From Cyanobacteria bacterium GSL.Bin1 (lineage in GTDB: Bacteria > Cyanobacteriota > Cyanobacteriia > Cyanobacteriales > Rubidibacteraceae): a DNA stretch of 64,000 nt. Shown here piece by piece: positions 2,582-45,147 of the stretch. The stretch lies in contig JAAANX010000187.1 in NCBI GenBank assembly GCA_009909085.1, forward strand, positions 1 to 64,000. Reading direction: 5' to 3'. The translations under genes and the position numbers were made by a program. How positions within the stretch are numbered: position 1 is the stretch's first letter; every line of letters starts with the position of its first letter. The notes beneath the pieces are model-generated. The model was not told the DNA's origin and ran no database searches. It saw only the letters and a list, made by a program, of their open reading frames with translations.

Positions 2582-2599
2582 ATCAAAATTGAGTGGAGT

Positions 2600-3442: not shown

Positions 3443-3445
3443 CAA

Positions 3446-3780: not shown

Positions 3781-4902
3781 ATGATTGTGCATAAAATTAG
3801 CCGTCTGGGAAGTCTCGTCATTGCTGCTGCTGTTGCGCCAATTGTTTTCTTGCCCTCGATCTCGCTCAGTGAAAGGATAGAAGTGAACTTTCAGGAAAAT
3901 ACCCAGCTTGGCCAAGAAAATCGCCAAGATGAATTGCGTCAGTTATTGGAGCGCGGACGAAAATTGGCAGATGCGAAGGAATATGAAGCGGCAACGGCAG
4001 TGTATAAAAAAGCGGCTGGTCTCGGTGCGAATAATCCTAAGATTTTCTCAGGTATTGGCTATCTCGAAGCCCAACAGGGGAATTATGAGACGGCGGTTTG
4101 GGCGTATCGCCGAGCGGTAGAACTGGCGCCCGATAATGCTGAGTTCTATTATGCTTTGGGTCATACCCTAGCGAAAATTGAAAAGTATTCCGAAGCGTCC
4201 ACCGCTTTTTTCCGGGCAACCGAATTGGACGAGCAAAAGCTAGAAGCCTATTTAGGGTTAGGGGCAGTGCTCTTACGTCAAAATGATCGGGCAGGCGCTT
4301 CGGCAATCTACCAAAAACTTTTGACCATTCAACCTAATCACGTAGAAGCGAATGCAATTTTGGGGTCTTTACTCGTCCGACAAGGGAATTATCCCGCCGC
4401 GATCGCGCACTTAAAAAACGTTATTCAGATCGCTCCCCAGGAAAGTTCAGCCTGGTTTAATCTCAGCACAGCTTATCAGCAACAGGGCCAATTCTCTCAA
4501 GCTTTGGCAACCATTGAAACGTTCTTGCAACGCTACCCGAATCAGGGGATGGGCTACTATTACCAAGGAAAACTACTGGAACAAGGAGGTGACCGACAAG
4601 CGGCAATATCAGCTTATCAACAAGCGATCCGTCTCGATCCGCAACCGGTTACAGCCTTAGTTGCCTTAGGAGAAATCCAACTGAAGCAACAAGATTATTC
4701 ACAAGCGATCGTTACGTATCGTCGCCTCACCGAACTCGTTCCCGATAATCCCAGTATTTATTACAATCTAGGGCTCGCCCTCAAAGGACGCGAGCGACCC
4801 AGTGAAGCCAGACAAGCCTTTCAAACCGCTTATGAACTGTATCGGAAAGTGAAGCATCAAGATGGCAAAGATCGCTCCCAGATGCAACTACGAACCCTGT
4901 GA
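3781..4902 (+). CDS. secreted or periplasmic tetratricopeptide-repeat protein
   Basis: 373 residues: an N-terminal hydrophobic signal (about 10-30), then roughly eight or nine TPR units from about residue 50 to 350, with repeated A..Y..A......P.... signatures such as AVWAYRRAVELAPDNAEFYYALG and AISAYQQAIRLDPQP (spacing 34). TPR arrays bind proteins; no partner is indicated here. Its last 15 bp overlap the 3' end of the convergent GH57 gene. No obvious Shine-Dalgarno precedes the ATG. Confidence 0.8.
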   Translation: MIVHKISRLGSLVIAAAVAPIVFLPSISLSERIEVNFQENTQLGQENRQDELRQLLERGRKLADAKEYEAATAVYKKAAGLGANNPKIFSGIGYLEAQQGNYETAVWAYRRAVELAPDNAEFYYALGHTLAKIEKYSEASTAFFRATELDEQKLEAYLGLGAVLLRQNDRAGASAIYQKLLTIQPNHVEANAILGSLLVRQGNYPAAIAHLKNVIQIAPQESSAWFNLSTAYQQQGQFSQALATIETFLQRYPNQGMGYYYQGKLLEQGGDRQAAISAYQQAIRLDPQPVTALVALGEIQLKQQDYSQAIVTYRRLTELVPDNPSIYYNLGLALKGRERPSEARQAFQTAYELYRKVKHQDGKDRSQMQLRTL

Positions 4903-7437
4903 TTCCAATTTTTGTAGCCAAGGACGAACATCAACTGCTAAATCGAGTCCCAGTTGCAGCAAACTGCGTAGTTCTTGAGACAATCCTTGTTGGGAATGGT
5001 TTTGTAACCAGTTGTAGTAGAGTTCTTGGCAGCGATCGAGCATTAGTCCGACATCGAGTAAGTGTCCCAAATCAATCAGCCGTTTCGTATATTTGCCAGT
5101 TGTCGGATCTTGGGGACAGTTATGAAGTAAATGCCACAGCGATCGTAAAGTGAGCCGTTCTAAAATTTTTCTGCCCTCTGGAATCTCCAAGGTGAGTTCT
5201 AAACGATGGGCTTCATTGGTCGTCATTTCCAATTCCTGCAACAGCTCGTTGCGCGCGGCAATATCCTCTTCCACTTGTTCTAGCTGCTGTAAACTGTTTA
5301 AGCAGCGCTGAGAAAGCGTAATTTCGGCAGCCACCTGTAGCTCTCGGGGAACGGGTAAGCGATCTTGATGAAATGCCACTAAAATACTGTAATTATCGCG
5401 ATAGATCTGAGTGTAAAGTTCGTGCAAGCGGTTTTTAGTTTGTTGGGCGAGTTGCTGCATAATCTCCATCCGCTTCTCCACCAAGAGATTTTCTAAGCCC
5501 AATGACTGTTCTCCAAAGTGGGCTTTCATAGCTAGAATTGTCTTCCCTACGCTGCCGTGTTTAAAGGTGCCAAAGATTTGTTCGAGCTGCATAACATAAG
5601 TAGTTCGTCCCGGAAAGGGTTGCACGCAGCAATGAAAGTCCCATCCCCCTAGATGTAAGACAGCAAAAACGACATGGGCAATTTCTCCGGTGGTGCGGGA
5701 CTGCATTTTTAATTCCCCCATGGCTAAGGTGAGAGCGCCAATGGTTTGACGATGGTAGTCTTTTTGTGTCACATTATATGCGTAATGATAATCTTGCTTC
5801 GGTTGCGCTTGGAATAAAGAACTAAAGGCGTAGTGGGCAGCAATTTGTTCGAGGGTAATTTGAGCGGGCTTGACCAGATACTGATAAACCTCAGCACCAT
5901 TTTGGAAATTTTGGTTATTACTGGGGGCTTGGGCGAGTCGTCCTATAAACTCAGTTTCCAGGAATTGGCCGGAGACGGTTTCTGCTAATTCGATCGCGCG
6001 GCAGGCATACTGTAAAATTTGTACCCCTTCGGGACGAGAAATTTCCTCAAAGAACCAACCGCAACTGGTGTACATGAGCAGGGCATTGCGTTGCATTTCT
6101 AGCAAGCGTAAAGCGGTAACTTGTTCTTGGGGGCGGAGCGGGTGATTGCGATGATGCAGGAGAAACGACATGACCTGAGCGCGATCATGCAAGACTTGCA
6201 GATAGTCATTACGAGCTGCCCACGGATCAACAAACAGTTTGCTCCCTTCTGTCGTAAAAATTTCTGCCAGCTGATCTCGCAACCAATCTAAACTTGTTCG
6301 CAGCGGTTGGCGCCAATTTTGCTGTGAGTGAGCACTGCCCCCGCAACCGCAAGCACTGCGCCAGCGTTCTATCCCATGGGGACAACTCCAAGAACTGACG
6401 GGCTTAAGCATCACTTCCCAGGTTGGGAGATTTTGGCTAAGATAATGCCCATAGTTGGTCACTTGCCAATCTCGGGCAGGAAATTCACGAGTAAAGGCAT
6501 AAGCTAGGGATTTTTCGGTTCCGGGTTTATGGTGACCAAAGGTTTCGCCATCTGTCGCCACATTAATCAATTGTGAGGGCAGATGACCCCCTTGAATGGC
6601 TTGTCGGAGGCGTTCGGCAAAATATTGCGAGGTCTGTAAGACATCATGAAAGCCCATATCTGCCGAAATTGGACCATCGTAGAAAAAGATATCAATAAAT
6701 TGGTCAGAGTCAACAAAACAGCGATAGGGGCGGGAGGGATTAATTTGAGACCCGCCGACTTCGTGCCAGATCCGAGGGGTCGAATTGTCCTGACTCGGCA
6801 GAGGACGACAGCGCTGGGCTTGGGAAGGAGAGAGGATAATGAAACGAATCTTTTCTGCAATCAGGGCTTCTAAGGTGGGATAGTCCACAGCGGTTTCCGG
6901 TAGCCACATGCCTTCCGGTTTCCGTCCAAACCGCCGTTGAAAATCTGCTTTTCCCCAGCGAATTTGCGTAATTTTATCTTCCCAGTTAGCCAGGGGAAGA
7001 ATGAGATGATTATAGGGTTGCGCGATCGCGTTGCCATGTCCATTGAGGCGTTCACAACTGGCGCGATCGGCTTCAATTATCTTTTGATAAACCTCTAAAT
7101 CGTATCGTTCTAGCCAGGACATCAAAGTCGGACCAACATTAAAACTGAGGTACTCAAAATTATTAACAATATCAATCACTTCTCCTCGTTCATTCAAGAC
7201 TCTCGCAAAGACATTCGGGCGATAACATTGATGATGAATCCGTTCATTCCAATCATGGAAGGGTTCTGCCGTTGGTTGCCGTTCAATGGCTTCTAAAAAA
7301 GGATTTTCTCGTGGCGGCTGATAAAAATGCCCGTGAACCGTCACATATACCCCCGTCTTGGTTTCTGATTCTCTTGCTGGATGAAGGGGTTTTAATAATT
7401 CTTTCATCACAGTAGCCCGACTGTCTTGACGATCCAT
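4888..7437 (-). CDS. glycoside hydrolase family 57 protein with DUF3536
   Basis: An 849-residue protein. The N-terminal GH57 part has VHGHFYQPPRENPFL, a long NERIHHQCYRPN region and GMWLPETAVD, where the Glu of the MWLPE motif is the expected nucleophile. The rest (about 300-850) is the helical DUF3536 region typical of cyanobacterial members. GH57 enzymes act on alpha-glucans, so glycogen metabolism is likely, but the specific reaction is unknown. ATG at 7437 is preferred: AAGGAGG at 7447-7453 is nine bases upstream, whereas the in-frame GTG at 7446 abuts it. It ends inside the 3' end of the convergent TPR gene. Confidence 0.85.
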   Translation of the reverse strand: MDRQDSRATVMKELLKPLHPARESETKTGVYVTVHGHFYQPPRENPFLEAIERQPTAEPFHDWNERIHHQCYRPNVFARVLNERGEVIDIVNNFEYLSFNVGPTLMSWLERYDLEVYQKIIEADRASCERLNGHGNAIAQPYNHLILPLANWEDKITQIRWGKADFQRRFGRKPEGMWLPETAVDYPTLEALIAEKIRFIILSPSQAQRCRPLPSQDNSTPRIWHEVGGSQINPSRPYRCFVDSDQFIDIFFYDGPISADMGFHDVLQTSQYFAERLRQAIQGGHLPSQLINVATDGETFGHHKPGTEKSLAYAFTREFPARDWQVTNYGHYLSQNLPTWEVMLKPVSSWSCPHGIERWRSACGCGGSAHSQQNWRQPLRTSLDWLRDQLAEIFTTEGSKLFVDPWAARNDYLQVLHDRAQVMSFLLHHRNHPLRPQEQVTALRLLEMQRNALLMYTSCGWFFEEISRPEGVQILQYACRAIELAETVSGQFLETEFIGRLAQAPSNNQNFQNGAEVYQYLVKPAQITLEQIAAHYAFSSLFQAQPKQDYHYAYNVTQKDYHRQTIGALTLAMGELKMQSRTTGEIAHVVFAVLHLGGWDFHCCVQPFPGRTTYVMQLEQIFGTFKHGSVGKTILAMKAHFGEQSLGLENLLVEKRMEIMQQLAQQTKNRLHELYTQIYRDNYSILVAFHQDRLPVPRELQVAAEITLSQRCLNSLQQLEQVEEDIAARNELLQELEMTTNEAHRLELTLEIPEGRKILERLTLRSLWHLLHNCPQDPTTGKYTKRLIDLGHLLDVGLMLDRCQELYYNWLQNHSQQGLSQELRSLLQLGLDLAVDVRPWLQKLESQGS

Positions 7438-7625
7438 ATTGCACACCCTCCTTCTTAACTGACTTTAACTCTGACAATGATTATTTTTCTAAAAGTAATT
7501 TTGTTCAGGGAATTGTGCTTAATCTTACTTTTATATAAAGACTTTCAAAAAGTATCCCTGTATTCTATGATCAATGTTCAAATTAGGGTATTATCTATCA
7601 TTAATTGTTAACTCTCCAGCTTAAA

Positions 7626-8750
7626 ATGATGTTCAATCGCAATACCTTATGGTTTATTCTATTACTATTTGTTCCCATTTCAATCATTGGTCATTGGTTA
7701 CATTGGGATGAAGTAACGATCTTTATCATGGCGAGTTTAGGGATTATTCCTCTCGCCGCTTTTATGGGTGAAGCAACAGAAGAAATTGCGGTTGTTGTGG
7801 GACCAACATTAGGGGGGCTCCTCAATGCAACTTTCGGTAATGCTACTGAATTAATCTTAGCTTTTATTGCTCTAAAAAGTGGTCTAATTAATGTCGTTAA
7901 AGCAACAATTACTGGATCAATTATCAGTAATTTATTATTGGTCATGGGCTTTGCCATGCTTTTAGGGGGATTGCGTTATAAAGAACAAATTTTTCAGTCG
8001 GAAGTGGCGCGGGTCAATGCGTCTTCTATGAATTTAGCGGTGATTGCCATTTTACTGCCAACGGCAGTTGAACATACCTCAAATGGAATTGGCGAAGCCA
8101 CGTTACAAAAATTATCGGTTGCCGTTGCCATTGTGTTAATTATTGTCTACGGATTAACGCTTTTATTTTCAATGAAAACCCATGCCTATCTTTGCGAAGT
8201 CGGAGCAGTGGATCAACAGTCACAATTATCAGTTGAGTCCACTCCAACAGAAGCAGAAAAAAAGCCAGAAGATGTGAATCTTTGGTTCTGGGTTGGAATT
8301 TTATTTGTTGTTACAATTACAGTCGCGATCGAGTCAGAATTATTGGTGAGTTCGTTAGAAGCAGCCACAGAAAGTTTAGGGATTACTGCTTTATTTACAG
8401 GGGTCATTCTGCTTCCTGTCATTGGCAATGCAGCAGAACACTTTACAGCGGTCACGGTTGCCATGAAAAATAAAATGGATTTGTCTTTATCAGTTGCTGT
8501 TGGTTCAACGCTCCAAATTGCCCTATTTGTTGCCCCTGTCTTAGTAATTACAGGTTGGATAATTGGTCAACCCATGGATTTAGACTTTAATCCCTTTGAG
8601 TTAGTCGCAGTGGCCGTTTCAGTTTTAATTGCCAACTCTATTAGTTCCGATGGCAAATCCAATTGGTTAGAAGGAAGTTTACTCTTAGCAACGTATATTG
8701 TGATTGGGTTGGCGTTTTTCTTTCATCCGGTTGTCCCCGGAATTGGTTAA
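7626..8750 (+). CDS. cax: Ca2+/H+ antiporter of the CaCA (CAX) family
   Basis: About 374 residues with ten or eleven predicted membrane segments in two homologous halves. Each half has the CAX alpha-repeat: GGLLNATFGNATELILA in the first and LPVIGNAAEHFTAVTVA in the second, carrying the Gly-Asn-Ala-(Thr/Ala)-Glu residues that bind cation. A short acidic, Lys-rich loop (about residues 200-220) separates the halves. ATG at 7626 (or 7629) is a better start than the TTG at 7605. It likely exports Ca2+ across the plasma membrane. It is isolated between divergent and convergent neighbours. Confidence 0.92.
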   Translation: MMFNRNTLWFILLLFVPISIIGHWLHWDEVTIFIMASLGIIPLAAFMGEATEEIAVVVGPTLGGLLNATFGNATELILAFIALKSGLINVVKATITGSIISNLLLVMGFAMLLGGLRYKEQIFQSEVARVNASSMNLAVIAILLPTAVEHTSNGIGEATLQKLSVAVAIVLIIVYGLTLLFSMKTHAYLCEVGAVDQQSQLSVESTPTEAEKKPEDVNLWFWVGILFVVTITVAIESELLVSSLEAATESLGITALFTGVILLPVIGNAAEHFTAVTVAMKNKMDLSLSVAVGSTLQIALFVAPVLVITGWIIGQPMDLDFNPFELVAVAVSVLIANSISSDGKSNWLEGSLLLATYIVIGLAFFFHPVVPGIG

Positions 8751-8778
8751 CGTTTAATCACGATTCGTCATAGCCAGA

Positions 8779-9354
8779 CTATCCTGTGACAAAAGGAAGA
8801 CTCAATCTGTCATCTTGATAGAAACGATACAGTAATTCCTCGTCTTTAAACTCATGTTTATCCCAAGTGTGGTGTAGCCAACCTTGATCAATCAGTGACT
8901 GTCCCACTTTAACGGCATCCTTGCGGGAACAGTTGAGATAATCACATAACCAATCGACTAGTTCGGTTCCAATAATGGATTTTGGATAGACTCTCAGCTT
9001 CTGGCGATTGTTCTTGATTAAGCCGGAAGTTTCACGTATGGCTTCCACAAGTGCTGCTAAATCTTCCTTGGTTTCTGTCGTGGGCACGTTTTCGTCTAAG
9101 GGTTCCAGTTCCGAATCTTGATAGCACAGTACATATTTTTGATTCCGCTCATCCATTACTAAAATACACAGTTTGCCGGCATCCAGTTTTTCTCGGGCTT
9201 GTTGAATTGCAATCTCCCGTTCTGCTGCTAAATAAGATTCTCCTTTGGTAAATAACCATTGCCGATAAGCAATTGCAACCAGTTTTTCGACTTGTGAGTT
9301 ATGACGTCGAATGGCTCGCTGAGGGCTAACTTGGTCAGCAGTAAGAATAAACAT
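8779..9354 (-). CDS. DEP-domain protein
   Basis: 191 residues. The C-terminal half (about 108-185) is a DEP domain: YPKSIIGTELVDWLCDYL, then KDAVKVGQSLIDQGWLHH and the final YRFYQDD strand. The N-terminal half is charged and predicted helical (residues 20-60) with no family I recognise. Some cyanobacterial proteins pair DEP with a short N-terminal module; no catalytic motif is visible. DEP domains act in membrane or phospholipid docking and signalling, so a regulatory role is likely but unproven. It converges on the cax gene, leaving only 28 bp between them. Confidence 0.75.
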   Translation of the reverse strand: MFILTADQVSPQRAIRRHNSQVEKLVAIAYRQWLFTKGESYLAAEREIAIQQAREKLDAGKLCILVMDERNQKYVLCYQDSELEPLDENVPTTETKEDLAALVEAIRETSGLIKNNRQKLRVYPKSIIGTELVDWLCDYLNCSRKDAVKVGQSLIDQGWLHHTWDKHEFKDEELLYRFYQDDRLSLPFVTG

Positions 9355-9521
9355 AGGATCAACCAGTCTGAATGGTATTACACTTATTATTGATTTTAAT
9401 CATACATTTTTATTGCGGAAAGTAAAGTTTAAGGTGAAGAAATGCTTAAAAATCCCTGAGCATTCTTCCTCATTTTGCCCCAATCAACGCCAAAATAGAA
9501 AAGGACTTTGGAGAATTACGA

Positions 9522-11207
9522 ATGTCAGATAATTTAAGAAGTAAAGCCGTTACTCAAGGGACACAACGCGCTCCCAACCGGGCCATGTTAAGGGCAGTCG
9601 GATTTGGGGATGACGATTTTACGAAGCCGATTGTGGGACTCGCTAATGGATATAGTACGATTACTCCCTGTAATGTGGGGATTAATGATTTAGCCCTCCG
9701 GGCGGAAGCGGCTTTTAAAGAAGCGGGAGCGATGCCCCAAATGTTTGGTACGATTACCATTTCCGATGGTATTTCCATGGGCACGGAGGGAATGAAATAT
9801 TCTCTTGTTTCCCGTGATGTCATTGCCGATTCCATTGAAACGGTGTGTAATGGACAGAGTATGGATGGGGTGCTAGCGATTGGCGGCTGCGATAAGAATA
9901 TGCCAGGGGCAATGATTGCCATGGCACGCCTCAATATTCCCTCGATTTTTGTTTATGGCGGAACAACCAAACCGGGACATTATGAGGGGAAAGATTTAAC
10001 CATTGTCAGTGCCTTTGAAGCGGTGGGAGAGTATAGTGCGGGCAATATTGATCAAGCCCATCTCACTGAAATTGAACGCCATGCTTGTCCGGGGGCTGGT
10101 TCATGTGGGGGAATGTTTACTGCCAATACCATGTCCTCGGCGTTTGAAGTGATGGGGATTAGTTTGCCCTATTCTTCCACTATGGCAGCGGAAGATGCGG
10201 AAAAAGCCGATAGTGCTGAGAAATCGGCGTTTGCTTTAGTCGAGGCGATTCGTAAGCAAATTTTGCCCAGTCAACTTTTAACACGGAAGGCCTTTGAAAA
10301 TGCGATTTCTGTGATTATGGCAGTGGGTGGCTCGACGAACGCAGTTCTGCATTTACTGGCGATTGCGAATACCATTGGTGTGGATCTGACCTTAGAAGAT
10401 TTTGCGACAATTCGCGATCGCGTTCCGGTTTTATGTGACCTCAAACCGTCCGGTCGGTTTGTGATTACAAACCTCCATGATGTGGGTGGAATTCCACTCG
10501 TGATGAAAATGCTCCTGGAACATGGTTTACTTCACGGTGATACCCTCACAATTACCGGAGAAACCACCGCAGAAATCTTAAAAGATGTTCCCAGTACCCC
10601 ACCCCCCAATCAAGAAGTGGTTCGCCAGTGGGATAATCCTGTGTATGCCCAAGGACACTTAGCGATTCTGAAAGGAAATTTAGCTGCAGAAGGGGCAGTG
10701 GCAAAAATTAGCGGCGTGAAAACACCAAAAATTACCGGTCCGGCGCGAGTGTTTGAGTCAGAAGAAGACTGTTTAGATGCGATTCTTGCTGGCAAAATTA
10801 ACGCCGGAGATGTCGTCATTGTCCGCAATGAGGGTCCGAAAGGGGGTCCTGGGATGCGGGAGATGTTAGCCCCCACTTCAGCGATTATTGGCGCGGGTTT
10901 AGGCGATTCCGTGGGCTTAATCACCGATGGACGTTTCTCCGGTGGCACTTATGGTCTGGTGGTGGGTCATGTAGCCCCTGAAGCGGCGGTTGGTGGCAAT
11001 ATTGCCTTGGTAGAAGAAGGAGACACCATTACTATTGATGCTGCAGCGCGATCGCTGCAGCTTCATGTGAGTGATGAAGAATTAGCCCAACGTCGCAGCA
11101 ACTGGCAACCGCCAGCGCCCCGTTATCCGCGCGGTGTTCTCGCTAAGTATGCCAAGCTCGTTTCTTCGAGTAGTTTGGGTGCAGTTACCGACTTAAATCT
11201 CACTTAG
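9522..11207 (+). CDS. ilvD: dihydroxy-acid dehydratase
   Basis: 561 residues, the normal length. It dehydrates 2,3-dihydroxy-isovalerate and -methylvalerate to 2-oxoacids in valine/isoleucine synthesis, using an Fe-S cluster. Cluster ligands are visible in the [11 protein letters not shown] and [14 protein letters not shown] motifs, with [12 protein letters not shown] near the C-terminus. A short GGAG precedes the ATG. It is monocistronic, followed by a hairpin at 11221-11246 and the convergent map gene. Confidence 0.96.
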
Positions 11208-11220
11208 ATCGGTCGAGTCA

Positions 11221-11246
11221 TTGGGGCGGATCACGGTTCGCCCCAA
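11221..11246. terminator. hairpin between convergent ilvD and map
   Basis: TTGGGGCG and CGCCCCAA form a perfect 8-bp GC-rich stem around a 10-nt loop, exactly between the two convergent stop codons. No T-run follows on either side, so it may be an RNA-stabilising or weak bidirectional terminator. Confidence 0.55.
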
Positions 11247-11260
11247 CTGAAATCCTGGGT

Positions 11261-12025
11261 CTATGCCGGTAAAGTTAAGATTTCAACTCCTTCTCGGGTC
11301 ACCGCGATCGTATGCTCAAATTGAGCGGATAACTTCCCATCTTTTGTTACGGCTGTCCACTTGTCATCCAGCACTTGCGCTTCATAAGTCCCTTCATTAA
11401 TCATCGGTTCAATGGTAAAAACCATGCCCGGACGGATCCGTTTTCCTTTTCCTTTAGTCCCGTAATGGGGGATTTGCGGTGCCGTGTGGAACACGCGATT
11501 AATGCCATGCCCCACAAAGTCGCGTACCACAGAAAACCCTTGGGCTTCTGCATACTCTTGAATGGCAGCGCCAATATCACCGATTCTTCCCCCCGGCTTG
11601 ACCGCCGCAATCCCACGCATTAAGCATTCTTTGGTGGTTTCCACTAACTTTTTCGCTGCCGGTGAGGGGGTACCCACAATAAACATTCTGGAGGTGTCGC
11701 CATGATAGCCATCTAAAATTGGCGTGACATCAATGTTGATAATATCGCCATCTTTCAAGATTTCTTTTGCATTTGGAATCCCATGACAAATCACTTCATT
11801 GACACTGGTGCAAATCGATTTCGGGAAACCGTGATAGCCTAAAGGCGCACTGGTTGCCCCGTGGGCTTGGGTCCAGCGTTCCGCTTCATCATTGAGTTCT
11901 AAGGTGCTGACCCCAGGTTTAATCATTGTTTCTAGATGATCCAGGAGTGCTGCCGCTAACCGTCCAGCACTGCGCATTTTTTCAATTTCTCGATTTGATA
12001 ATAAAGTAATCGTTTCGCTTCCCAT
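11261..12025 (-). CDS. map: type I methionine aminopeptidase
   Basis: 254 residues. Removes the N-terminal Met from nascent proteins using a dinuclear metal site. Visible metal and catalytic motifs: CHGIPN (catalytic His), NIDVTPILDGYHGDTSRMF (two Asp ligands), GHGINRVFH (His ligand), FTIEPMI (Glu) and QFEHT (Glu). Length fits the bacterial type Ia form without the N-terminal zinc-finger extension. It converges on ilvD and reads away from the ABC ATPase upstream. Confidence 0.95.
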   Translation of the reverse strand: MGSETITLLSNREIEKMRSAGRLAAALLDHLETMIKPGVSTLELNDEAERWTQAHGATSAPLGYHGFPKSICTSVNEVICHGIPNAKEILKDGDIINIDVTPILDGYHGDTSRMFIVGTPSPAAKKLVETTKECLMRGIAAVKPGGRIGDIGAAIQEYAEAQGFSVVRDFVGHGINRVFHTAPQIPHYGTKGKGKRIRPGMVFTIEPMINEGTYEAQVLDDKWTAVTKDGKLSAQFEHTIAVTREGVEILTLPA

Positions 12026-12064
12026 GCGTTTGATTGATTCCTAGCAGATTCTATAATACTAAAA

Positions 12065-12718
12065 TTAGCGATTTCCAATGGCTTGTGGCATCTCCACCGA
12101 GGATAATTCCCCATTTTGAATCCGCCAACACTGATCGGCCACTGACACTAATTCCTTAGCATCATGAGTGACCACTAATAGTGTCCAATGTTCTTTTAAT
12201 TTTGCCAATAATTTCACTAATTGGCTGCGCATTGACCAGTCTAACCCGGCAGTGGGTTCATCTAACATCAGGACATTGGGCTGGCGGATTAATTGCACCG
12301 CTAAGGCTAAACGTCTTTGTTGTCCACCACTTAAGGCATGAGGCGAAGTATTCAAGGAAAGATGATCTAATCCCACTTCTTCTAAGGCATTTTTGACTTG
12401 GGTGAGACTTAACTCGGGATGACCAAAGCGCAATTCTTCTAGAATCGTTCCGCCACAAAAATGCCGTTCTGGAAACTGGAAAACCAGTCCGGCTAATTCT
12501 TGCAGATTATAAGACATGAGGGATTGACTCCCCCACAAAATTTCTCCTTTTGTTGGTTCGGCTAACCCCGATAAAATTTCTAAGAGAGTGCTTTTTCCAG
12601 AACCGCTAGGACCGATAATCAATCCTAACTGTTGGGGAGGAAGTTGTAGCGTGATTCCTTTTAAGATGGGTTCGGGAGTCGCGGGAGGATGATAAGTTAA
12701 ATTTTTGAGATATAACAT
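12065..12718 (-). CDS. CbiO/EcfA-like ABC transporter ATP-binding protein
   Basis: 217 residues forming a single nucleotide-binding domain: Walker A GPSGSGKST (about 37-45), Q-loop FQFPERHF, signature LSGGQQRRLALA, Walker B VLMLDEPTAGLD and the switch His in VVTHD. The Q-loop PE.HF pattern and overall style resemble CbiO/EcfA ATPases. There is no permease gene next to it, so the partner must be encoded elsewhere; the lone CbiM at 1461-2108 is one formal possibility. It lies 39 bp upstream of map on the same strand. Confidence 0.8.
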   Translation of the reverse strand: MLYLKNLTYHPPATPEPILKGITLQLPPQQLGLIIGPSGSGKSTLLEILSGLAEPTKGEILWGSQSLMSYNLQELAGLVFQFPERHFCGGTILEELRFGHPELSLTQVKNALEEVGLDHLSLNTSPHALSGGQQRRLALAVQLIRQPNVLMLDEPTAGLDWSMRSQLVKLLAKLKEHWTLLVVTHDAKELVSVADQCWRIQNGELSSVEMPQAIGNR

Positions 12719-12913
12719 GCAGTGAGAGTAAAGACCTTAAAAGTATCAAGCCGAGCTATTCACTATTTTAAGGGAAAGCATGATTGTGGTGAGAGTCGAA
12801 TTAATTTAGTAACTTCTATTTTGATATGCTTATTAGTTCTCTCAACTGCGTGTTCATCTGTTGGCACTTGCAAGCGCAAAGGATTAGTGCCTAAGGCATA
12901 ATGTTGGCGACAC

Positions 12914-13129
12914 TTATTCTTTGAGCACTGTTTGTTTGCGACTTGGCTTATCAATATGTAATTCACCGCCAACTGCCCAATTTTCTCGTTCAAATTCATC
13001 GATATGAATAGTGACCCATTCTGGTCGGGTTCCTAAATTTGCTACGAGGGTATCGGTAACAGCTTTCGCCAATTTACGCTTGTCTTCAACGGAATGACCG
13101 TCGGCAATTTGAATGGTAACAAATGGCAT
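12914..13129 (-). CDS. 4-oxalocrotonate tautomerase family protein
   Basis: A 71-residue small tautomerase starting MPFVTIQIADGHS. Pro2, which becomes the N-terminal catalytic proline after Met removal, fixes the ATG at 13129; GGAGG lies seven bases upstream. The rest (EDKRKLAKAVTDTLVANLG, VTIHIDEFERENWAVGG) matches the 4-OT fold, which works as a hexamer or dimer of trimers. Substrate unknown. It is unconnected to the nif genes except by position at the island's left edge. Confidence 0.85.
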   Translation of the reverse strand: MPFVTIQIADGHSVEDKRKLAKAVTDTLVANLGTRPEWVTIHIDEFERENWAVGGELHIDKPSRKQTVLKE

Positions 13130-13265
13130 GGTATAACCTCCAATGTTAGTCAAGGTGATTCAGCATCAAACAGTCGATTTTTATTAAGACTGCATCTTTA
13201 TTATCAAATTAATAATGATTAATTAATCCTTGATCGCTTCTTGCTTTGAGTAATAGTTCAACTGA

Positions 13266-13874
13266 TCAGGCATTTGTTGCATGAACTGTGCGATCTGGCG
13301 AAGGGACTGCCCTTTGATCATCGCACTGATAATGATTCGCTAACAAAGCAGTCAGATTCTGTGGATCGACATAATTATATACAACTTTACCCGGCATCAG
13401 AATAAAGCTTGGGGCTTTTTTACATTGTTTTTGGCAGCCAGTGAGTTCAATTGAAACTTGATTTTTTAAGCCTAATTTTTCAAGCGCTTCTGCTAAAGCA
13501 AAATAGAGGTTTTTACCTCCCTTTTTCGCACAGCCAGATTTATAACAGAGTAAAATCTTCCCTTTTTTAGTCGGTGAAGTTGAGCCAAAAACAAGCGGTT
13601 TACGATCAGTATTCAGCTTTTCCAGGTGTTGCGTTTTCAGCTTTAAGCAACTCCCTTTTCCTACTCCTTTTTTCTCCAAGCTAACTAATAAATGATCGCC
13701 CTTGACCAGTTTTTGACTCACGGGTTTCCGTAAGTCTTTGGCAAGTTTAACCGCTATTGTCCGTTCTCCCACTTGCAACTGCATATATTTAAACGCGTTC
13801 TTGGGGTTGGGTAAAAAGCCGAGAAATTCGCCTTCGATTTGATGGGTTGCGATTGGTGCTTTTTTCTGTTTCAT
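13266..13874 (-). CDS. (2Fe-2S) thioredoxin-like ferredoxin domain protein at the nif island edge
   Basis: 202 residues. The N-terminal part (about 1-95) is basic and beta-rich with no clear family. The C-terminal part (about 105-180) is a thioredoxin-like [2Fe-2S] ferredoxin: ILLCYKSGCAKKGG supplies two Cys and ELTGCQKQCKKAPSF the other two. Such modules carry or sense electrons. It ends the minus-strand nif arm, 20 bp downstream of cysK, so it may be co-transcribed with the sulfur genes. The exact role is unknown. Confidence 0.7.
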   Translation of the reverse strand: MKQKKAPIATHQIEGEFLGFLPNPKNAFKYMQLQVGERTIAVKLAKDLRKPVSQKLVKGDHLLVSLEKKGVGKGSCLKLKTQHLEKLNTDRKPLVFGSTSPTKKGKILLCYKSGCAKKGGKNLYFALAEALEKLGLKNQVSIELTGCQKQCKKAPSFILMPGKVVYNYVDPQNLTALLANHYQCDDQRAVPSPDRTVHATNA

Positions 13875-13894
13875 GAAATTGTTCCTTGGTTTTA

Positions 13895-14857
13895 CTAAGT
13901 AACGACTAATGTTTTTTCCTCTTCTAAATCCTGAAAGAGAGGGGTACTCAAATACCGTTCGCCAAAACTGGGCTGAATCATGACAATCAGCTTGCCAGCA
14001 TTTTCTTTTCTTTTGCCCACGGCAATGGCAGCGGCTAAAGCGGCGCCGGTGGAAATTCCAGAGAGTAAACCCTCTTCGCGGGCGAGACGACGACCATATT
14101 GAATCGCGTCTTCATCAGTAACGGTTATGACTTCATCAATGACATCAACCTTCAAGATTTCGGGTACAAATCCCGCACCAATGCCTTGAATCTTGTGGCT
14201 TCCAGAACTGCCTCCAGAAAGGATAGGGCTATTGGCGGGTTCAACCGCGATCGCGCTGAGTTCAGGTTTGCGCTGTTTGAGGGTTTCTGCCACGCCAGTG
14301 AGGGTGCCCCCTGTACCGACTCCAGCAATAAAAAGGTCAATTTCGCCATCGGTATCAGACCAAATTTCTTCGGCAGTGGTTTGGCAATGAATTTGGGGGT
14401 TAGCGGGATTTTGGAACTGTTGCGGCATAAAGCTATCGGGGAGACTGCTGGCGAGTTCTTCTGCCCGCGCGATCGCGCCTTTCATGCCGGCATTAGCCGG
14501 AGTTAACTCTAACTGCGCCCCATAAGCTTTCAACATCGCCCGTCGCTCTTGACTCATGCTTTCCGGCATGGTCAAAATAATGGAATAGCCTTTGGCTGCT
14601 GCTGCCATCGCCAGGGCAATGCCTGTATTGCCAGATGTGGGTTCAATGAGGACTGTTTTTCCAGGGGCAATTAAACCCGCTTGTTCAGCGGCATTAATCA
14701 TACTAACGCCAATGCGATCTTTCACTGAAGCGGCGGGATTCATACTTTCTAATTTGACCACAATTTGAGCCAAACAGCCTTCAGCAAAGGGAATGGAATT
14801 TAAGCGAACTAAAGGGGTTTTTCCCACTAATTCTGTAATGTTATCGGCAATTTTCAT
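13895..14857 (-). CDS. cysK: cysteine synthase A (O-acetylserine sulfhydrylase)
   Basis: 320 residues, normal length. PLP-dependent synthesis of cysteine from O-acetylserine and sulfide. PLP Lys in [11 protein letters not shown], substrate loop [11 protein letters not shown], phosphate-binding [10 protein letters not shown] and the C-terminal SGISTGAA are visible. Placement in the same strand and arm as the serine acetyltransferase nifP suggests a nif-dedicated cysteine pathway that feeds NifS. A housekeeping copy elsewhere in the genome is expected. Confidence 0.93.
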
Positions 14858-14872
14858 CGGTATAAAAGGGAC

Positions 14873-15139
14873 TTATTCTTGAGGTGAAGATTGGTTAGCA
14901 AGTTCGGGATAAAACCCTAATTGTTTAGAAAGCTCACGGGCAATAAACATTAGAAATTGAGAGGCTTCTTGATTATTTCCATGTGCCATTGCTGTCGCCA
15001 CTTGGATTAAGGTTTTAATGAAGTCTTGATCCAGCAAATCGCTTCTAGAATCTAAGACATCTGGTTCTTTTCCATTTGGGCAATGGAGTAAGCGGTCAAT
15101 TAATTCAAAATATTCTTCTTGGCGTTGATTATCAGTCAT
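14873..15139 (-). CDS. 88-aa protein of unknown function in the nif arm
   Basis: 88 residues, acidic, predicted all-helical (FELIDRLLHC, FIKTLIQVATAMAHG, SQFLMFIARELSKQLGF). The central helix pair resembles a short N-terminal module seen in some cyanobacterial TPR/CHAT proteins, here standing alone; I cannot name a family with confidence. It sits 15 bp upstream of cysK and 18 bp downstream of a 51-aa membrane peptide gene, so it is probably part of the fdxB-cysK transcript. No membrane segment or metal motif. Confidence 0.6.
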   Translation of the reverse strand: MTDNQRQEEYFELIDRLLHCPNGKEPDVLDSRSDLLDQDFIKTLIQVATAMAHGNNQEASQFLMFIARELSKQLGFYPELANQSSPQE

Positions 15140-15157
15140 GATCGCTTTTCTTCTCTC

Positions 15158-15313
15158 TTATTTAAGACTTGTGGCTTCTATCAGTGATAATTTTCCCAAA
15201 AGAGGTGACTCTTTAAAAAGCTCTGGACTGTAGTAAATCGAAGTTAAAACCAAAGTCAGAATTAGAGCCAAAATTGTGACACTTCCCTCTTGATAGGGGT
15301 CTGGATATTTCAT
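15158..15313 (-). CDS. 51-aa single-span membrane peptide next to fdxB
   Basis: A small frame from ATG at 15313 to TAA at 15158. It begins MKYPDPYQEG, has one hydrophobic span (VTILALILTLVLTSIYY, about residues 12-28) and ends in a polar tail. GAGGAAG lies five bases upstream of the ATG, an excellent ribosome-binding site. It fits tightly between fdxB and the 88-aa gene on the same strand. Function is unknown; a membrane-associated helper of the fdxB/nif functions is only a guess from position. Confidence 0.6.
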   Translation of the reverse strand: MKYPDPYQEGSVTILALILTLVLTSIYYSPELFKESPLLGKLSLIEATSLK

Positions 15314-15403
15314 GATCTCTTCCTCAAAAGATAAAACTTTGGGATGGGATGAGATCTCTCTCTGCTATCGCACAGCAGAGGAGATCAAGGCATTTTTTAG
15401 TTC

Positions 15404-15703
15404 TTAAACGGCTAAAGCTTCGTGAGTGTGACAATTTTTTGGACAAATGCGGGCACACGCTTCACAACCGATACATTTGGCAGCATTAATAATGGTCATG
15501 ACATAACGTTCGATATCGTCATCATCATCATCTTCATCATCAATCAATTCACCAAATTCATTCATGGCTTGCATTCCCAGAACATTGCGACCACAGACTT
15601 TATGGCAGCGACCGCAGCCGAGACAAACATCTTTATCAATTGCTGTAATAAATTTCGGTTCCCAGGTAGAACCATCTTTTGTGAAAGCTGTAAGTGTAGG
15701 CAT
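15404..15703 (-). CDS. fdxB: nif-specific ferredoxin III
   Basis: 99 residues from the ATG at 15703, which has GAGGAG seven bases upstream; an upstream extension lacks support. Two Cys clusters, CLGCGRCHKVCGRNV and CIGCEACARICPKNC, bind two [4Fe-4S] clusters; an acidic loop of seven consecutive Asp/Glu residues lies between them. FdxB is the nif-cluster ferredoxin III, thought to supply electrons to nitrogenase maturation or reduction. It belongs to the nifP-nifV-nifT-fdxB arm. Confidence 0.92.
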   Translation of the reverse strand: MPTLTAFTKDGSTWEPKFITAIDKDVCLGCGRCHKVCGRNVLGMQAMNEFGELIDDEDDDDDDIERYVMTIINAAKCIGCEACARICPKNCHTHEALAV

Positions 15704-15781
15704 GAGTTTTCTCCTCTGTTTAATTCGTGTGTACTGAGCATCATTAATAATCAAAATTACATTTGAATTACTAATGAAAAA

Positions 15782-15982
15782 TTACAGTTTTGTCGCATTG
15801 AAAGTTTGAGGGAGTTTACTATCATCAGTTAACCCCTTAAAAGAAAGTTGCCAACCATTGGCTAAGGTTAAAATTTTGCCATCAGCCGTAATGGATTGCT
15901 CAACCACTTCTTCTTCCAAATCTTTCTTCGGAACATAAACTGATAAATGTCCGACTTGATTTTGATGCAACATGACTTTCAT
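15782..15982 (-). CDS. nifT: NifT/FixU family protein
   Basis: 66 residues starting MKVMLHQN; the N-terminal MKVM and the WQLSF strand near the C-terminus are typical of NifT. It is a small nif-associated protein of unknown biochemical role. It lies 46 bp downstream of nifV on the same strand. The upstream extension to a start at 16036 would overlap the nifV stop and adds a non-homologous hydrophobic stretch, so 15982 is preferred although its ribosome-binding site is weak. Confidence 0.88.
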   Translation of the reverse strand: MKVMLHQNQVGHLSVYVPKKDLEEEVVEQSITADGKILTLANGWQLSFKGLTDDSKLPQTFNATKL

Positions 15983-16028
15983 GAGTTTTAAGCCTTGTAA
16001 GTGGATAAGGATCAGTCTTGAAAAGAAC

Positions 16029-17153
16029 CTAACCAACGGGAGTATATTGAGAGACTAAGTTCAATAACTCATCGGGGGTTAAATTGCGTTTTAACTCAAC
16101 TGATAAGGTACGGATTGCCTCCAGCAGCGATCGCGCTTCTTGGGCACTGAGCGTAATTCCCTGTTGTTGTAGGAAGTTCACTAGCAGATGCTTACCAGAA
16201 TGTTTGCCAATAACAAGATCCCGTTTACATCCGACTTCTTCTGGGGTAAAGGGTTCATAAGTCGCCGGATCTTGTAAAACCCCATGTCCGTGAATCCCCG
16301 CTTCATGGGCAAAGGCATTTTTTCCCACCACGGCTTTCCAAGGAGGAACATCATAGCCGGTGGCGTTGACAACAAATTCCGATAGGGCCTTAAATTGGCA
16401 GGTATCAATGCCAGTTTTGATGCCATAGATCTGCTTCAGTGCCATCACCACTTCTTCTAAGGCAGCATTACCGGCTCTTTCTCCAAAACCATTAACGGTG
16501 GTATTCACTGACGTTGCCCCTGCTTGAATGCCTGCTAAAGCATTGGCAGTTGCCATTCCCAAATCATTATGGGTGTGCATTTCCACCGTAATGTTGAGGC
16601 AGTTGACCAGTTGCTGAATTTTGCTGTAAGTGGTTAGGGGATCCAAAATCCCCACCGTATCGCAAAAGCGAAAGCGAGAAGCCCCCGCCTTCTGCGCCGC
16701 CAGCGCCACCTCAAGGAGAAAGTTGGGATCCGCACGGGAAGCATCTTCCCCACCGACAGAGATATACAAACCGCGATCGCGCGCATAGTGAACTGTCTTT
16801 TGGAGGCGATCAAACACCTGTTGTTTGTCCCCTTGAAATTTCACGGCGATTTGCCGATCTGAAACGGGAACCGAAATATGCACCCGCTGTACCCCACAGG
16901 CGAGAGAGGCATCAATATCCGCTTGCACCGCACGATTCCAACTCGTAATCTGGGTTTTTAAACCGAGGTGAGTGATCGTGCGAATGGCTTCGGCTTCGGC
17001 ACCGCCCATGGCGGGAATGCCCACTTCCAGTTCTTGCACTCCGATCGCGCTCATGAAACTGGCAAAGGCAACTTTTTCCGCGACGGTGAAGGCAATACCA
17101 GCTGCTTGTTCACCATCTCTGAGGGTTGTGTCATTGATATGAATGGGTTGCAT
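16029..17153 (-). CDS. nifV: homocitrate synthase
   Basis: 374 residues from ATG at 17153 (AGGA upstream). It condenses acetyl-CoA and 2-oxoglutarate to homocitrate, the organic ligand of FeMo-co. DmpG/HMGL-type TIM barrel with NDTTLRDGEQAAG (metal and substrate site), FRFCDTVGILDP and the metal-binding HTHNDLGMATANALAG. Located between dps and nifT. Its position and the homocitrate-synthase-type start distinguish it from leuA. Confidence 0.93.
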   Translation of the reverse strand: MQPIHINDTTLRDGEQAAGIAFTVAEKVAFASFMSAIGVQELEVGIPAMGGAEAEAIRTITHLGLKTQITSWNRAVQADIDASLACGVQRVHISVPVSDRQIAVKFQGDKQQVFDRLQKTVHYARDRGLYISVGGEDASRADPNFLLEVALAAQKAGASRFRFCDTVGILDPLTTYSKIQQLVNCLNITVEMHTHNDLGMATANALAGIQAGATSVNTTVNGFGERAGNAALEEVVMALKQIYGIKTGIDTCQFKALSEFVVNATGYDVPPWKAVVGKNAFAHEAGIHGHGVLQDPATYEPFTPEEVGCKRDLVIGKHSGKHLLVNFLQQQGITLSAQEARSLLEAIRTLSVELKRNLTPDELLNLVSQYTPVG

Positions 17154-17196
17154 AATTTTGTCCTTTGTTGTTCGTCCTTGAACCAATGACGAATGA

Positions 17197-17739
17197 CTAT
17201 TGACCAATAAAGCCTAGGGTTAAGCTGTCGGGTGCGAGGAAATGATCGAGATGAAACGCCCGTTCTTCTGTCTTCAGGAGAATTTCTTCATACAGATAAC
17301 GGGTCGCGCGATCGCCGACACTTTCCGTTTGCGCTGCTTGTGAGCGGAGTAATTCGATGATGCTCTGCTCTGCTACCAAATCATGCTCAATCATTTGGCG
17401 ACAGTCAAAAATGCCATCCTCTTCTGGGGTAAAGCAGCACAGTTGAGCAAGTTTGCTAAAACTAGCTGCCGGGGTTCCACCCAAGCCATTTAAGCGTTCA
17501 CCAATTTCATGGGCGTGACCTTGCACCGCCTCGTAACTTTCTTGGAAATAGTCATGAATCGAAACAAATTCTGACCCTTCAATCACAAAATGATGCTTGA
17601 GGTATTGCAAATAAAGACCTTGAAAGCTAGCAAGGGCAAGATTTAACCCTTCGCACACTGAAATCGTGATGTCTTGATCAAGACGAACCGGGTTCGTTTT
17701 TACATCTCCGAAAGCTTGAATAACGGTTTTTTGTGTCAT
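17197..17739 (-). CDS. dps: Dps-family ferritin-like protein in the nif arm
   Basis: 180 residues, four-helix ferritin-like fold. The inter-subunit ferroxidase ligands are visible: His in [10 protein letters not shown], His/Asp in [11 protein letters not shown] and a following Glu; LNGLGGTPA is the usual Dps turn. Dps stores iron and removes peroxide, which would protect nitrogenase and buffer iron for it. It is placed between nifV and orf136 on the same strand, 43 bp upstream of nifV, so co-expression with nitrogen fixation is likely. Confidence 0.85.
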
Positions 17740-17751
17740 ATGTTTGAACTC

Positions 17752-18162
17752 CTAGTGATAAGAGGTGGCTAAAATGGACGTGGTCCAGCAGCGGTCTAAC
17801 CAATCGGCTAACTCGGAACGCGAATTAGTAAACTGATGAACCGTGCTGCGGAGGAGCGTTGCCCCGACACAACCCTCGATTTCAACCCAGAGCGTGCCAT
17901 CTTGGGGACACCAGCAGGAAATGCCTAACTCTTTTAAGCGACGATAAACCTGCCAGCGATCGCTACGTTGAATGGTGACGACTCGACTCACCAAGGCATC
18001 AGGGCGAGCCGCCCGTTCCCTAGAATTTAATTCTGAGGCGGGGTTGTCAGAGTGCTGAAATGCATTCGGCACAGCACCTTTGGCTTGCGAGTCCGAGATG
18101 ATGCCTTCCTCAATCGAAGGCACCTGCTCTGACCGTTGTTCACCGTTGGTGAATTGATTCAT
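17752..18162 (-). CDS. nif-linked protein of unknown function (orf136)
   Basis: 136 residues from ATG at 18162, with GAGGTG six bases upstream. The first about 50 residues are polar and probably disordered. The C-terminal domain (about 55-130) has [27 protein letters not shown] and LADWLDRCW, an alpha/beta pattern with conserved-looking Trp and Cys. I have the impression that homologues sit beside nifP in other cyanobacterial nif clusters but cannot name the family. It overlaps nifP by 23 bp, which implies coupling. Confidence 0.6.
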
Positions 18163-18973
18163 AGTTTTCACCTCGACAGGAGGATAGGGTTTGTATTTGT
18201 TGTTCCAAAGTCTCAATCCGCTCTAAAAGTGAGCGAATCGTTGTTGCTTCTGGATCAGGAAGTTTGCCATGTTCCAGGGGACAACCATAACCCGTGCGAA
18301 CAATCCGACCCGGAACCCCGACCACCGTGCAATCTTCTGGAACATCTCGCAGCACGACCGACCCCGCACCAACGCGCACATGATCCCCAAGATTGATATT
18401 CCCTAAAACTTTTGCTCCCGCCCCCACCACAACATTTTGTCCGAGGGTGGGATGGCGTTTTCCCGTTTGCTTACCTGTACCGCCTAAGGTGACATTTTGG
18501 TAAATTAAACAGTAATCTCCCACAATTGCAGTTTCGCCAACTACCACTCCCATTCCGTGATCAATAAAGACCCCTTGACCAATGCTTGCCCCGGGATGGA
18601 TGTCAATCCCTGTGAGAAAGCGTCCGCAGTGGGATAAAACACGCGGTAGGAGAGGGACTTGTTTTCGCCACAGCCAATGGGCAAGCCGATGTAAAGCCAA
18701 GGCATGAACACCGGGATAACAAAGCAGGATCTCTAACCAGTTGTTCGCTGCCGGATCACGCTCAAAGATAATTTTGATATCATCCCAGATGATAAATCGA
18801 GAATGGCGAATTGACTTGAGGTGGCAGGGGCTTTGGCTCTTTTTTTGTTTGTGGGGAACTGTAAATGAGGGTTGCATAACTGTTGTTAGGGGTAGGTGAG
18901 CCGGTTCGGTTTTCATTGCTTTGTAATGCTCCTTATAGCAATTCCCGATTTGTTGCCAACAGTCATTGCTCAA
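18140..18973 (-). CDS. nifP: nif-associated serine O-acetyltransferase
   Basis: Up to 277 residues; starts at 18973, 18916 or 18877 are all possible and none has a strong ribosome-binding site. The core matches Cys[21 protein letters not shown], then left-handed beta-helix hexapeptides [29 protein letters not shown] and [14 protein letters not shown], with the catalytic His in FIDHGMG. It makes O-acetylserine for cysteine synthesis, raising the supply for NifS. First gene of the minus-strand nif arm, divergent from nifB. Confidence 0.9.
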
Positions 18974-19210
18974 GGTTAGATTGATTAGATTAATCAGAGG
19001 GTACTCATTAACTCTCGATCCAGATGAAATCGCGGTTTGAGCATTTAAAAAATTTCTTTGGGGGGCAACCTACTAGTATTTTGACCGATACCCCTGAGTA
19101 TTATTTGGTCAAGCAACGAGTATTGAGTACTCAAGATGAAATGACTGATATCCCAGACCCACTCCAGCATCTAGGGAGCCATTCTCTTCAAAAATAAGGT
19201 ACTCACCCTC

Positions 19211-19224
19211 GTATGAGACAGTAC
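19211..19224. promoter_or_regulatory. NtcA-type site GTAN8TAC
   Basis: GTATGAGACAGTAC matches the NtcA consensus GTAN8TAC exactly, 10 bp beyond one of the TACTCA hexamers. Nitrogen-stress activation of nifB, nifP or both would fit, but no -10 box at the usual spacing is convincing in either direction. Confidence 0.55.
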
Positions 19225-19407
19225 AAAGACAAAACCCAAGCAGGGTCTGTTTTGTAGCTTTTGTTACTCTTTTTTAAAATCATTAATTATTTCTGATCAA
19301 ACTCACTCAAAATAATAATGTTAATTTAGATACGGATTGAAAAAAAACTGCATTGAATTCTCTCAAGCGACAAAGTAATAAAAGACAATTGAGTACAACG
19401 AACTGAG

Positions 19408-19434
19408 GGGGAATTTACCTAGGTGTAGTTCCCC
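19408..19434. promoter_or_regulatory. nested palindrome upstream of nifB
   Basis: GGGGAA and TTCCCC form an outer 6-bp dyad enclosing the 8-bp palindrome ACCTAGGT near its centre. It could be a protein-binding dyad or a hairpin in the nifB leader, about 300 bp before the start codon. Confidence 0.4.
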
Positions 19435-19735
19435 AAAAGCCTTGCTCTCACTACAATTGGTCGAGAGTAACGCAAATACTAGTGGTGTCAGAAATAAATA
19501 CTCACGCCCCTTCTAAAAATTCTCGTCCCGCGACCCACAAAAAAATTTTTCTCTGCACTAGACAAGGGTTTCAGGGACTGAGTACAACCTAATTATTTTA
19601 ATAAAACAAACTCAGCAAGGCTTTTACCCTCACCGAAATCCCCGTTGCTATAACTGTCATAACTTCATCGAACTCATCTGAGACTGAGTTTGATTTAATT
19701 TCGGTCTGAGTCCACATCATGCGGAAGGCAATGCA

Positions 19736-21178
19736 ATGTCACCCACTCCTTATTCCACGTTCCAAAAAGCCAAGGAAACTATAGCCCAATCAACACAAAG
19801 CTGTGGTTGTACTTCTCCGATGCCTCAAGCTCTTGATCCTAAACTTCAAGAAAGAATCGAGAATCATCCCTGTTACAGCGAAGAAGCACACCACCACTAT
19901 GCCCGGATGCATGTTGCAGTTGCCCCCGCTTGCAACATTCAGTGTAACTTCTGTAATCGCAAGTATGATTGTGCGAACGAAAGTCGCCCTGGGGTGGTTA
20001 GTGAACTCCTCTCTCCGGAAGAAGCCGCTCATAAAGCACTCGTTATTGCTGGCAAAATTCCGCAAATGACTGTTTTAGGAATTGCGGGACCGGGGGATCC
20101 GTTAGCGAACCCCGAAGAAACCTTCCGTACCTTTGAGTTAGTAAGAGAGAAAGCACCAGATATTAAATTGTGCTTATCTACCAACGGCTTAATGCTTCCT
20201 GATTACATTGATCGCATCAAAGCATTAGATATCGATCATGTCACGATTACCATTAACATGATTGACCCGAAAATTGGCGCACAAATCTATTCCTGGGTGC
20301 GCTATCAACGGAAACGCTGGACGGGAGAAGCTGCCGCACAAATCCTTCACGAACGACAAATGGAAGGCTTAGAGGCGCTACAAGAAGCGGATATTCTCTG
20401 CAAAGTGAACTCTGTGATGATTCCGGGGATTAACGATCAACACTTGGTTGATGTTCATGAAGCAATTCAAGCGCGGGGGGCTTTCCTCCATAACATTATG
20501 CCCTTAGTCTCTGCCCCTGAACATGGCACGTACTTTGGCTTAAATGGACAACGCGGTCCCACGCAAAAAGAGTTAAAAGCCTTACAAGATCAAGTTGAAA
20601 CGGCTGATGGTGGAGCAAGTAATATGAAAATGATGCGTCACTGTCGTCAATGTCGTGCCGATGCCATTGGTTTACTCGGTGAAGATCGCTCTCAAGAATT
20701 TACGAAAGACAAATTCTTAGAGATGACCCCGGAATATGACCTGCAAAAACGCCAAGAAGTTCACGGTGATATTCAGCAAATTAAGGCAGCGATGAAAGCA
20801 GCCAAAGCCGAAAGAGAAGCTGCGAAAAAACAACGAGGCGAAAAAATCTTCGTTGCAGTTGCCACAAAAGGCGGTGGCGTTGTTAATCAACACTTCGGTC
20901 ATGCTAAAGAGTTTCAGATCTTTGAAGTGGATGGTGTGGAAGCAAAATTTGTGAGCCACCGTAAAGTTGACCATTACTGTCAAGGCGGTTATGGCGAAGA
21001 AGCAACCCTCAACAACATTATCAACACCATCCAAGATTGCAAAGCAGTTCTGGTTTCTAAAGTTGGGGATTATCCGAAAGAGCTCTTACAAAAAGCTGGG
21101 GTTGAACCCGTGGAAGGCTATGAAACCATTGATGCTTTAGCGTTGAAGTTCTACGAAGAATTTGTTGTTAGTCATTAG
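19736..21178 (+). CDS. nifB: FeMo-cofactor core synthase NifB
   Basis: 480 residues. Radical-SAM domain (about 50-300) with AdoMet cluster motif [14 protein letters not shown]; auxiliary-cluster Cys in CGCTSP near the N-terminus and HCRQCRADA near residue 305. The C-terminal domain (about 365-475) is NifX/NafY-like ([20 protein letters not shown]). It fuses two [4Fe-4S] clusters and inserts carbide and sulfur to make the NifB-co core. Heads the plus-strand arm downstream of the candidate CnfR region. Confidence 0.97.
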
Positions 21179-45009: not shown

Positions 45010-45147
45010 CGCTAAATTTTTAACCCAAAAATCATAGAAATGAAATTGAAAATAAACTTAGTGGTTTCAACCGTTGTTTTATTATCTTCTCTAACGGAAG
45101 TTTGATGGTAAGCATACAGTTGAAATTGATTGAATTAGTTAAGGATG

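Follow-up and report, generated by a model that had tools for sequence, protein, structure and literature searches.

The closest described relatives of the locus analysed here are the CnfR-responsive nif promoters of Anabaena variabilis and Leptolyngbya boryana, and the original paper on the motifs of the L. boryana CnfR element is reportedly that of Tsujimoto from 2016. In the excerpts of the published reports on which we draw here and below, three conserved cis-acting elements are described upstream of nifB in both A. variabilis and L. boryana and are presumed to be CnfR sites; without either the first or the second element, nifB1 transcription fell by ~50%, and without both it fell by 75% (PMC8510180). 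The same excerpts are the source for the dependence of nifB and nifP on CnfR and for the loss of nifB1 expression upon removal of the conserved sites (PMC8510180, PMC4284476). For A. variabilis, a conserved TGAGTATA motif was found at three places upstream of nifB1, together with an extended −10, and the figure legends put a transcription start site at −328 from the nifB start codon (PMC4284476). According to the excerpted text, the two divergent nif2 operons share a single apparent CnfR site, so two arrays are not always needed (PMC8510180). For L. boryana, the excerpted report describes divergent nifB and nifP promoters that are activated by CnfR and share one intergenic region with several short motifs (PMC5943405).

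The DNA analysed here is a stretch of 64,000 nucleotides from Cyanobacteria bacterium GSL.Bin1, referred to as the window, in which nifP, encoding a serine O-acetyltransferase (18140–18916, minus strand; TIGR01172, 251 bits versus a cut-off of 211), and nifB (19736–21178, plus strand; NCBIfam TIGR01290, 656 bits versus a cut-off of 344) are likewise divergent. A sequence-only reading had reported eight TGAGTA/TACTCA hexamers at 19002–19584, and all eight exact copies were recovered at the positions it gave, 19002(−), 19095(+), 19124(+), 19128(−), 19200(−), 19390(+), 19499(−), and 19579(+). Its estimate that chance would give well under one copy was also borne out, as the 2278 copies counted on both strands of the whole genome (4,822,295 bases) correspond to 0.36 per 762 bp, the distance between the nifP and nifB ORFs as listed. 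The Poisson probability of at least eight copies in a single given 762-bp stretch is 5e-9, or 1e-7 for at least seven when the overlapping pair is counted once, and only 3e-5 clusters of at least eight would be expected across all 762-bp stretches of the whole genome. Of all hexamers found in 18974–19735, TGAGTA/TACTCA shows the strongest excess over the rest of the window, and it also ranks first in 45101–45553, which holds four copies. An explanation by chance or base composition could draw on the fact that this hexamer is not rare, the window as a whole holding 34 copies, 12 of them inside the two array-bearing intergenic regions, against a mean of 19 in shuffled sequences; set against the Poisson value and the conservation of order, spacing and flanks in other genomes, the likelihood of this explanation is negligible. 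We assign a probability of about 0.9 to the reading that the hexamers mark two divergent cyanobacterial CnfR-responsive promoter modules, of which they are the most conspicuous letters.

Each arm of the intergenic region carries a full module, and the two arms are mirror images of each other. The module consists, in order, of an element E1, a distance of 72–74 bp, an element E2, three AAATACTnGnnCCC-type repeats ~22 bp apart, an element E3, and TGCTATAA 67 bp past E3. In the nifB-facing arm (plus strand), E1 (TTGAGTACAAC, 19390–19395) lies 74 bp before E2, which the model alignment places at the degenerate AGAGTA of 19464–19469 with an E2–E3 spacing of 115 bp; the three repeats occupy 19474–19525 (starting at 19474, 19496, and 19517, 21–22 bp apart), with the TACTCA of 19499 inside the middle one, and E3 (CTGAGTACAACCTAATTATTTTAATAAAA, 19579–19584, placed by the model alignment) is followed, 67 bp after its start, by TGCTATAA at 19646–19653, the presumed extended −10 of nifB. 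In the nifP-facing arm (minus strand), E1' (19200–19205) lies 72 bp before E2', which reads as the palindrome TTGAGTACTCAA (19123–19134) with its overlapping hexamers 19124(+) and 19128(−); three AATACT-type repeats 22 bp apart (19073–19124) include the TGAGTA of 19095(+) in the middle one, E3' (19002–19007) lies 126 bp after E2', and TGCTATAA at 18933–18940, 67 bp after the start of E3', is the presumed extended −10 of nifP. The TTG start listed for nifP at 18973 is probably wrong, because the first ATG, at 18916, sits downstream of this presumed −10. A consensus from 55 aligned arrays gave E2 as TGAGTACA, followed by three AAATACTnGnnCCCC units ~22 bp apart, an A/T-rich spacer, AGGGTTTGAG, and E3 as TTGAGTACAnnCTTAATnAATTCAATAAA.

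The eight hexamers can thus be assigned to the slots E1, E3, E1', E2', and E3', to the opposite, overlapping strand of E2', and to one inner repeat in each arm (19095 and 19499). The sequence-only reading had treated them as a single class of site, a view that did not hold, since the hexamers at 19095 and 19499 fall in AAATACTnGnnCCC-type repeats, and since the E2 element AGAGTA at 19464 had been overlooked because its letters depart from the exact hexamer. Nor are there two copies that share a palindrome: TTGAGTACTCAA occurs once in the window, the supposed two being its overlapping strands, and the nearest nif-bearing relative lacks it. The palindrome supplies two of the eight hexamers and was rejected as an operator, having only one further copy elsewhere in the genome; it arises at E2' because E2 is there followed by a T, as is the case at 8 of the 114 array places whose E2 could be read. 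Of the extended copies described as several, TTGAGTACAAC is read only at 19390, and the copy at 19579 reads CTGAGTACAAC.

Compared with A. variabilis, the same three TGAGTA-type motifs that precede an extended −10 upstream of nifB1 and nifB2 in the excerpted reports (PMC4284476, PMC8510180) are found here upstream of nifB in the order E1 (19390), E2 (19464, with one mismatch), and E3 (19579), with conserved order and spacing, and the presumed extended −10 lies downstream of them. The printed A. variabilis motif TGAGTATA compares with the consensus TGAGTACA obtained here. Two differences were noted: the nifB-side E2 is degenerate here, and a mirrored second copy in the same intergenic region serves nifP, whereas nifP lies elsewhere in A. 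variabilis in the excerpted description (PMC4284476). The likeness to motifs I to IX of L. boryana is one of general arrangement, as the excerpted text describes it (PMC5943405). The module belongs to a kind already known from the literature, where three motifs preceding nifB are described as presumed CnfR sites; the nifP–nifB region is an ordinary, well-preserved example. Among the literature matches listed for TTGAGTACAA or TGAGTAC with nif and cyanobacteri, no title dealt with nif control.

Conservation upstream of nifB was assessed at 80 other cyanobacterial loci, using upstream regions of 900 bp (shorter in four of the 80). At least one TGAGTA was present in every locus and exactly three in 42, with a mean of 3.3 per 900 bp upstream of nifB versus 0.36 downstream; the highest counts were seven (L020) and eight (L074). 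The copy number between nifP and nifB, described earlier as unusually high, is thus that of two ordinary arrays, other nifB upstream regions often holding three copies and the two nif-bearing congeners six and five. In the nifB upstream regions the recurring order is E1, E2, E3, and then a TAAT..CAATAAA-like block, and in Nostoc-type loci E1–E3 precede the start codon by ~590 to 390 bp, which, together with the A. variabilis start site at −328, fits the distances measured here. An array on the nifB strand was found in all 80 loci, and a second, opposite array, sought within at most 3 kb upstream of nifB, in 34 of them. A profile trained on 58 nifB upstream regions of other genomes matched the window at 19385–19663(+), 19134–18931(−), and 45263–45123(−), and a fourth match at 45402–45542(+) had an E value of 0.012, just outside the inclusion threshold; none was found elsewhere in the window. 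The remaining 22 loci had been omitted from training (21 without the E3 pattern used, one cut short), and all 22 matched the profile with E values of 2.4e-11 or better. Close relatives agree with this picture. Both nif-bearing congeners, G003 and G001, conserve the arrangement upstream of nifB: G003 carries six hexamers in the same slots, without the palindrome and without the 19095 copy, and G001 carries five that are placed less regularly. The other six of the nine family genomes searched matched neither nifB at 1e-100 nor cnfR at 1e-40.

The distances within the arrays are also constrained. Over 128 array places (the arrays of the 80 loci, the window and the congeners, the two G001 nifP–nifB arrays being counted twice because L087 lies inside L105), the E2–E3 spacing was 114–120 bp in 44, 125–128 bp in 69 and unreadable in 15. 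These two groups are about one helical turn apart, and the window has both (115 and 126 bp). At 80 of 114 places, a TGAGTA precedes the second base of E2 by 71–75 positions (70–74 bp between hexamers, mostly 71–72), and TGnTA[TA]AA occurred 117 times 66–70 bp past E3 over 127 arrays (the two G001 arrays again counted twice), the distance being 67 bp for both nifB and nifP here. Such spacing speaks for a mode of binding in which one face of the helix would be occupied, at a fixed distance from the polymerase.

Next, the whole genome was searched with an E2–E3 model built from 55 arrays of other genomes. Among the best 150 of 1686 first-look candidates that were scored, four matches were significant, with E values of 2.1e-19, 6.6e-14, 2.0e-12, and 5.4e-6, and all four lie in the window, the next best candidate having an E value of 0.15; in this search the module is thus confined to four of the genome's promoters. 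A dispersed repeat or a mobile element in the intergenic region might also leave mirror-image copies and short repeated units behind. With no more than four significant copies in 4.8 Mb, each of them within the nif-bearing window, with the same placement upstream of nifB in other families and with the specificity for promoters across genomes, such an origin is hard to defend, and its probability is vanishingly small. Neither the hexamer count over the whole genome, nor the genome-wide module search, nor the comparison with relatives contradicted the promoter-element reading proposed earlier, and good support for the proposal of candidate CnfR-type elements controlling nifB and nifP comes from the 80 of 80 nifB loci, from the co-occurrence of CnfR and NifB with the arrays and from the printed motifs. 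The presence of cnfR in the window was likewise confirmed (42658–44265, minus strand), with a 4Fe-4S domain at the N-terminus (residues 5–58) and an HTH_3 domain at the C-terminus (residues 484–533), and the genome gave no other CnfR match at E ≤ 1e-40.

Across 244 genomes of the phylum, some of which may share species with the genomes behind the model, an array at E ≤ 1e-3 was found in 47 (148 places) and no other of the 244 passed the threshold, under strict filters and with the best 12 candidates per genome scored, so weak arrays may escape. CnfR matches at E ≤ 1e-40 were present in 52 genomes and NifB matches at E ≤ 1e-60 in 51, and each of the 47 array-bearing genomes matched both CnfR and NifB, the latter below 1e-200. 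Shortened CnfR matches among the array bearers were those of G135 (residues 274–532) and G182 (residues 1–481, in a 564-aa frame). In G135 (C6:715366–716543), the CnfR match lies in a 279-aa frame, and an array lies ~300 bp upstream, at the place expected for the N-terminal half. The five CnfR matches without an array were all partial (G010, G073, and G212, residues 88–91 to 446–447; G123, 48–524; G125, 66–260, with a stop), and the four NifB matches without an array (G010, G073, G123, and G218) were weak and partial.

These counts alone cannot name the binder, because CnfR and NifB co-occur in all 47 array genomes. Another regulator linked to diazotrophy, such as NtcA, a ribbon-helix-helix (RHH) protein or an unknown factor, could bind the module, with CnfR acting indirectly; besides the inseparable presence of CnfR and NifB, this view can point to swaps of the HTH domains between CnfR1 and CnfR2, which changed promoter choice little in the excerpted account (PMC8510180). 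We regard it as improbable. RHH ORF matches were found in 8 of the 244 genomes versus arrays in 47, which makes an RHH protein unlikely as the binder, and G010, G073, and G123, whose CnfR and NifB matches are weak or partial, showed no array under the strict filters. In G010, the CnfR-like ORF beside the nif cluster had no Pfam HTH or Fe-S match and the genome had no detected array, which is what recognition of the array by the CnfR HTH would predict, and this case leans towards the CnfR HTH as the putative reader. The divergent nif cluster of G010 (L144, G010:C1:3390000–3409900, 2027–18721) has the order nifS-nifU-nifH-P-II-like-nifD-nifK-nifE-nifN/K-like-nifB, the NifB match being partial, and also nifV. 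In G073, NifB-like and CnfR-like matches lie at a distance similar to that in G010.

With CnfR as the preferred binder, the module would work as follows. At low oxygen and low combined nitrogen, CnfR, with its N-terminal Fe-S clusters and C-terminal XRE-type HTH, would occupy the E elements and would recruit RNA polymerase to the extended −10, 67 bp past E3, and nifB would be fired one way and nifP the other. We infer direct binding by CnfR, the elements that it binds and a cooperation along one helical face. The order, spacing and fixed −10 distance provide a quantitative description of the module that is usable for predicting the CnfR regulon in other cyanobacteria, and in this genome the module predicts four CnfR target promoters. 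Moving the L. boryana nif cluster into another host depended on CnfR acting at promoters of this type, according to the excerpted report (PMC5943405).

The other two predicted promoters point away from each other in the DNA that separates cnfR from a nafY-like gene, and this second divergent pair is the new and less expected part of the locus. The third array (45119–45262, minus strand; E 6.6e-14 in the whole-genome search) faces a CopG-like RHH ORF and cnfR, and the fourth, a partial one (45400–45493, plus strand; model positions 54–147; E 5.4e-6 in the same search), faces the nafY-like gene and has TGTTATAA 59 bp after its E3. The nafY-like gene (45554–46255, plus strand) encodes DIMCO_N and Nitro_FeMo-Co domains, its NCBIfam nifX score of 107 bits lying under the cut-off of 112. 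The RHH ORF (54 aa, 44757–44918, minus strand; RHH_1 19.6 bits, just under the cut-off of 20.5) comes first on the cnfR-facing arm, and ~490 bp separate it from cnfR. E2 is unreadable in both arrays of this pair; together with the AGAGTA of 19464, these departures of E elements from the hexamer count against the reading of the arrays as CnfR-responsive modules. The second pair is also present at cnfR in G003 and G001, and the RHH ORF sequence is kept in both. The cnfR-facing arm of the window contains no TGnTATAA; in G003, one lies 68 bp past E3.

Judged from the placement of the third array, CnfR is predicted to drive the RHH ORF, or cnfR itself, and the arrays beside cnfR raise the question whether the master regulator is under feedback control. 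The nafY gene of L. boryana is described in the excerpted text as separate from the nif cluster and mostly constitutive (PMC6428710), whereas the nafY-like gene here carries an array; in L. boryana, cnfR is absent from the CnfR-dependent genes named in the excerpted report (PMC5943405). We tentatively suggest, at odds somewhat below even, that in this genus CnfR may act at its own locus, with the nafY-like gene and the gene of the 50–54-aa RHH regulator (cnfR following ~490 bp on) under CnfR, in a feed-forward or positive-feedback loop absent from L. boryana. cnfR may be served by its own promoter. In the neighbourhood of cnfR, a scan for consensus sequences gave four promoter-like sites versus 4.2 in shuffled sequences and two terminator-like sites versus 1.0. 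NtcA sites have the form GTAN8TAC, and a scan of the DNA upstream of cnfR gave one such sequence, at −197 of cnfR (about 44449–44462) in the window and in G003, and none at that place in G001, a single match of this kind being not unlikely by chance.

An array within 1 kb of a cnfR match was found in 4 of the 47 array-bearing genomes (G000, G001, G163, and G135). It faces the nearby cnfR only in G000 and G001, as it does in G003, which is outside the 244, and points away in G163 and G135. In G092, an array is aimed at cnfR from a distance of 2 kb, and in G177 a strong relative of the RHH ORF, 71% identical, lies on a contig with arrays and cnfR.
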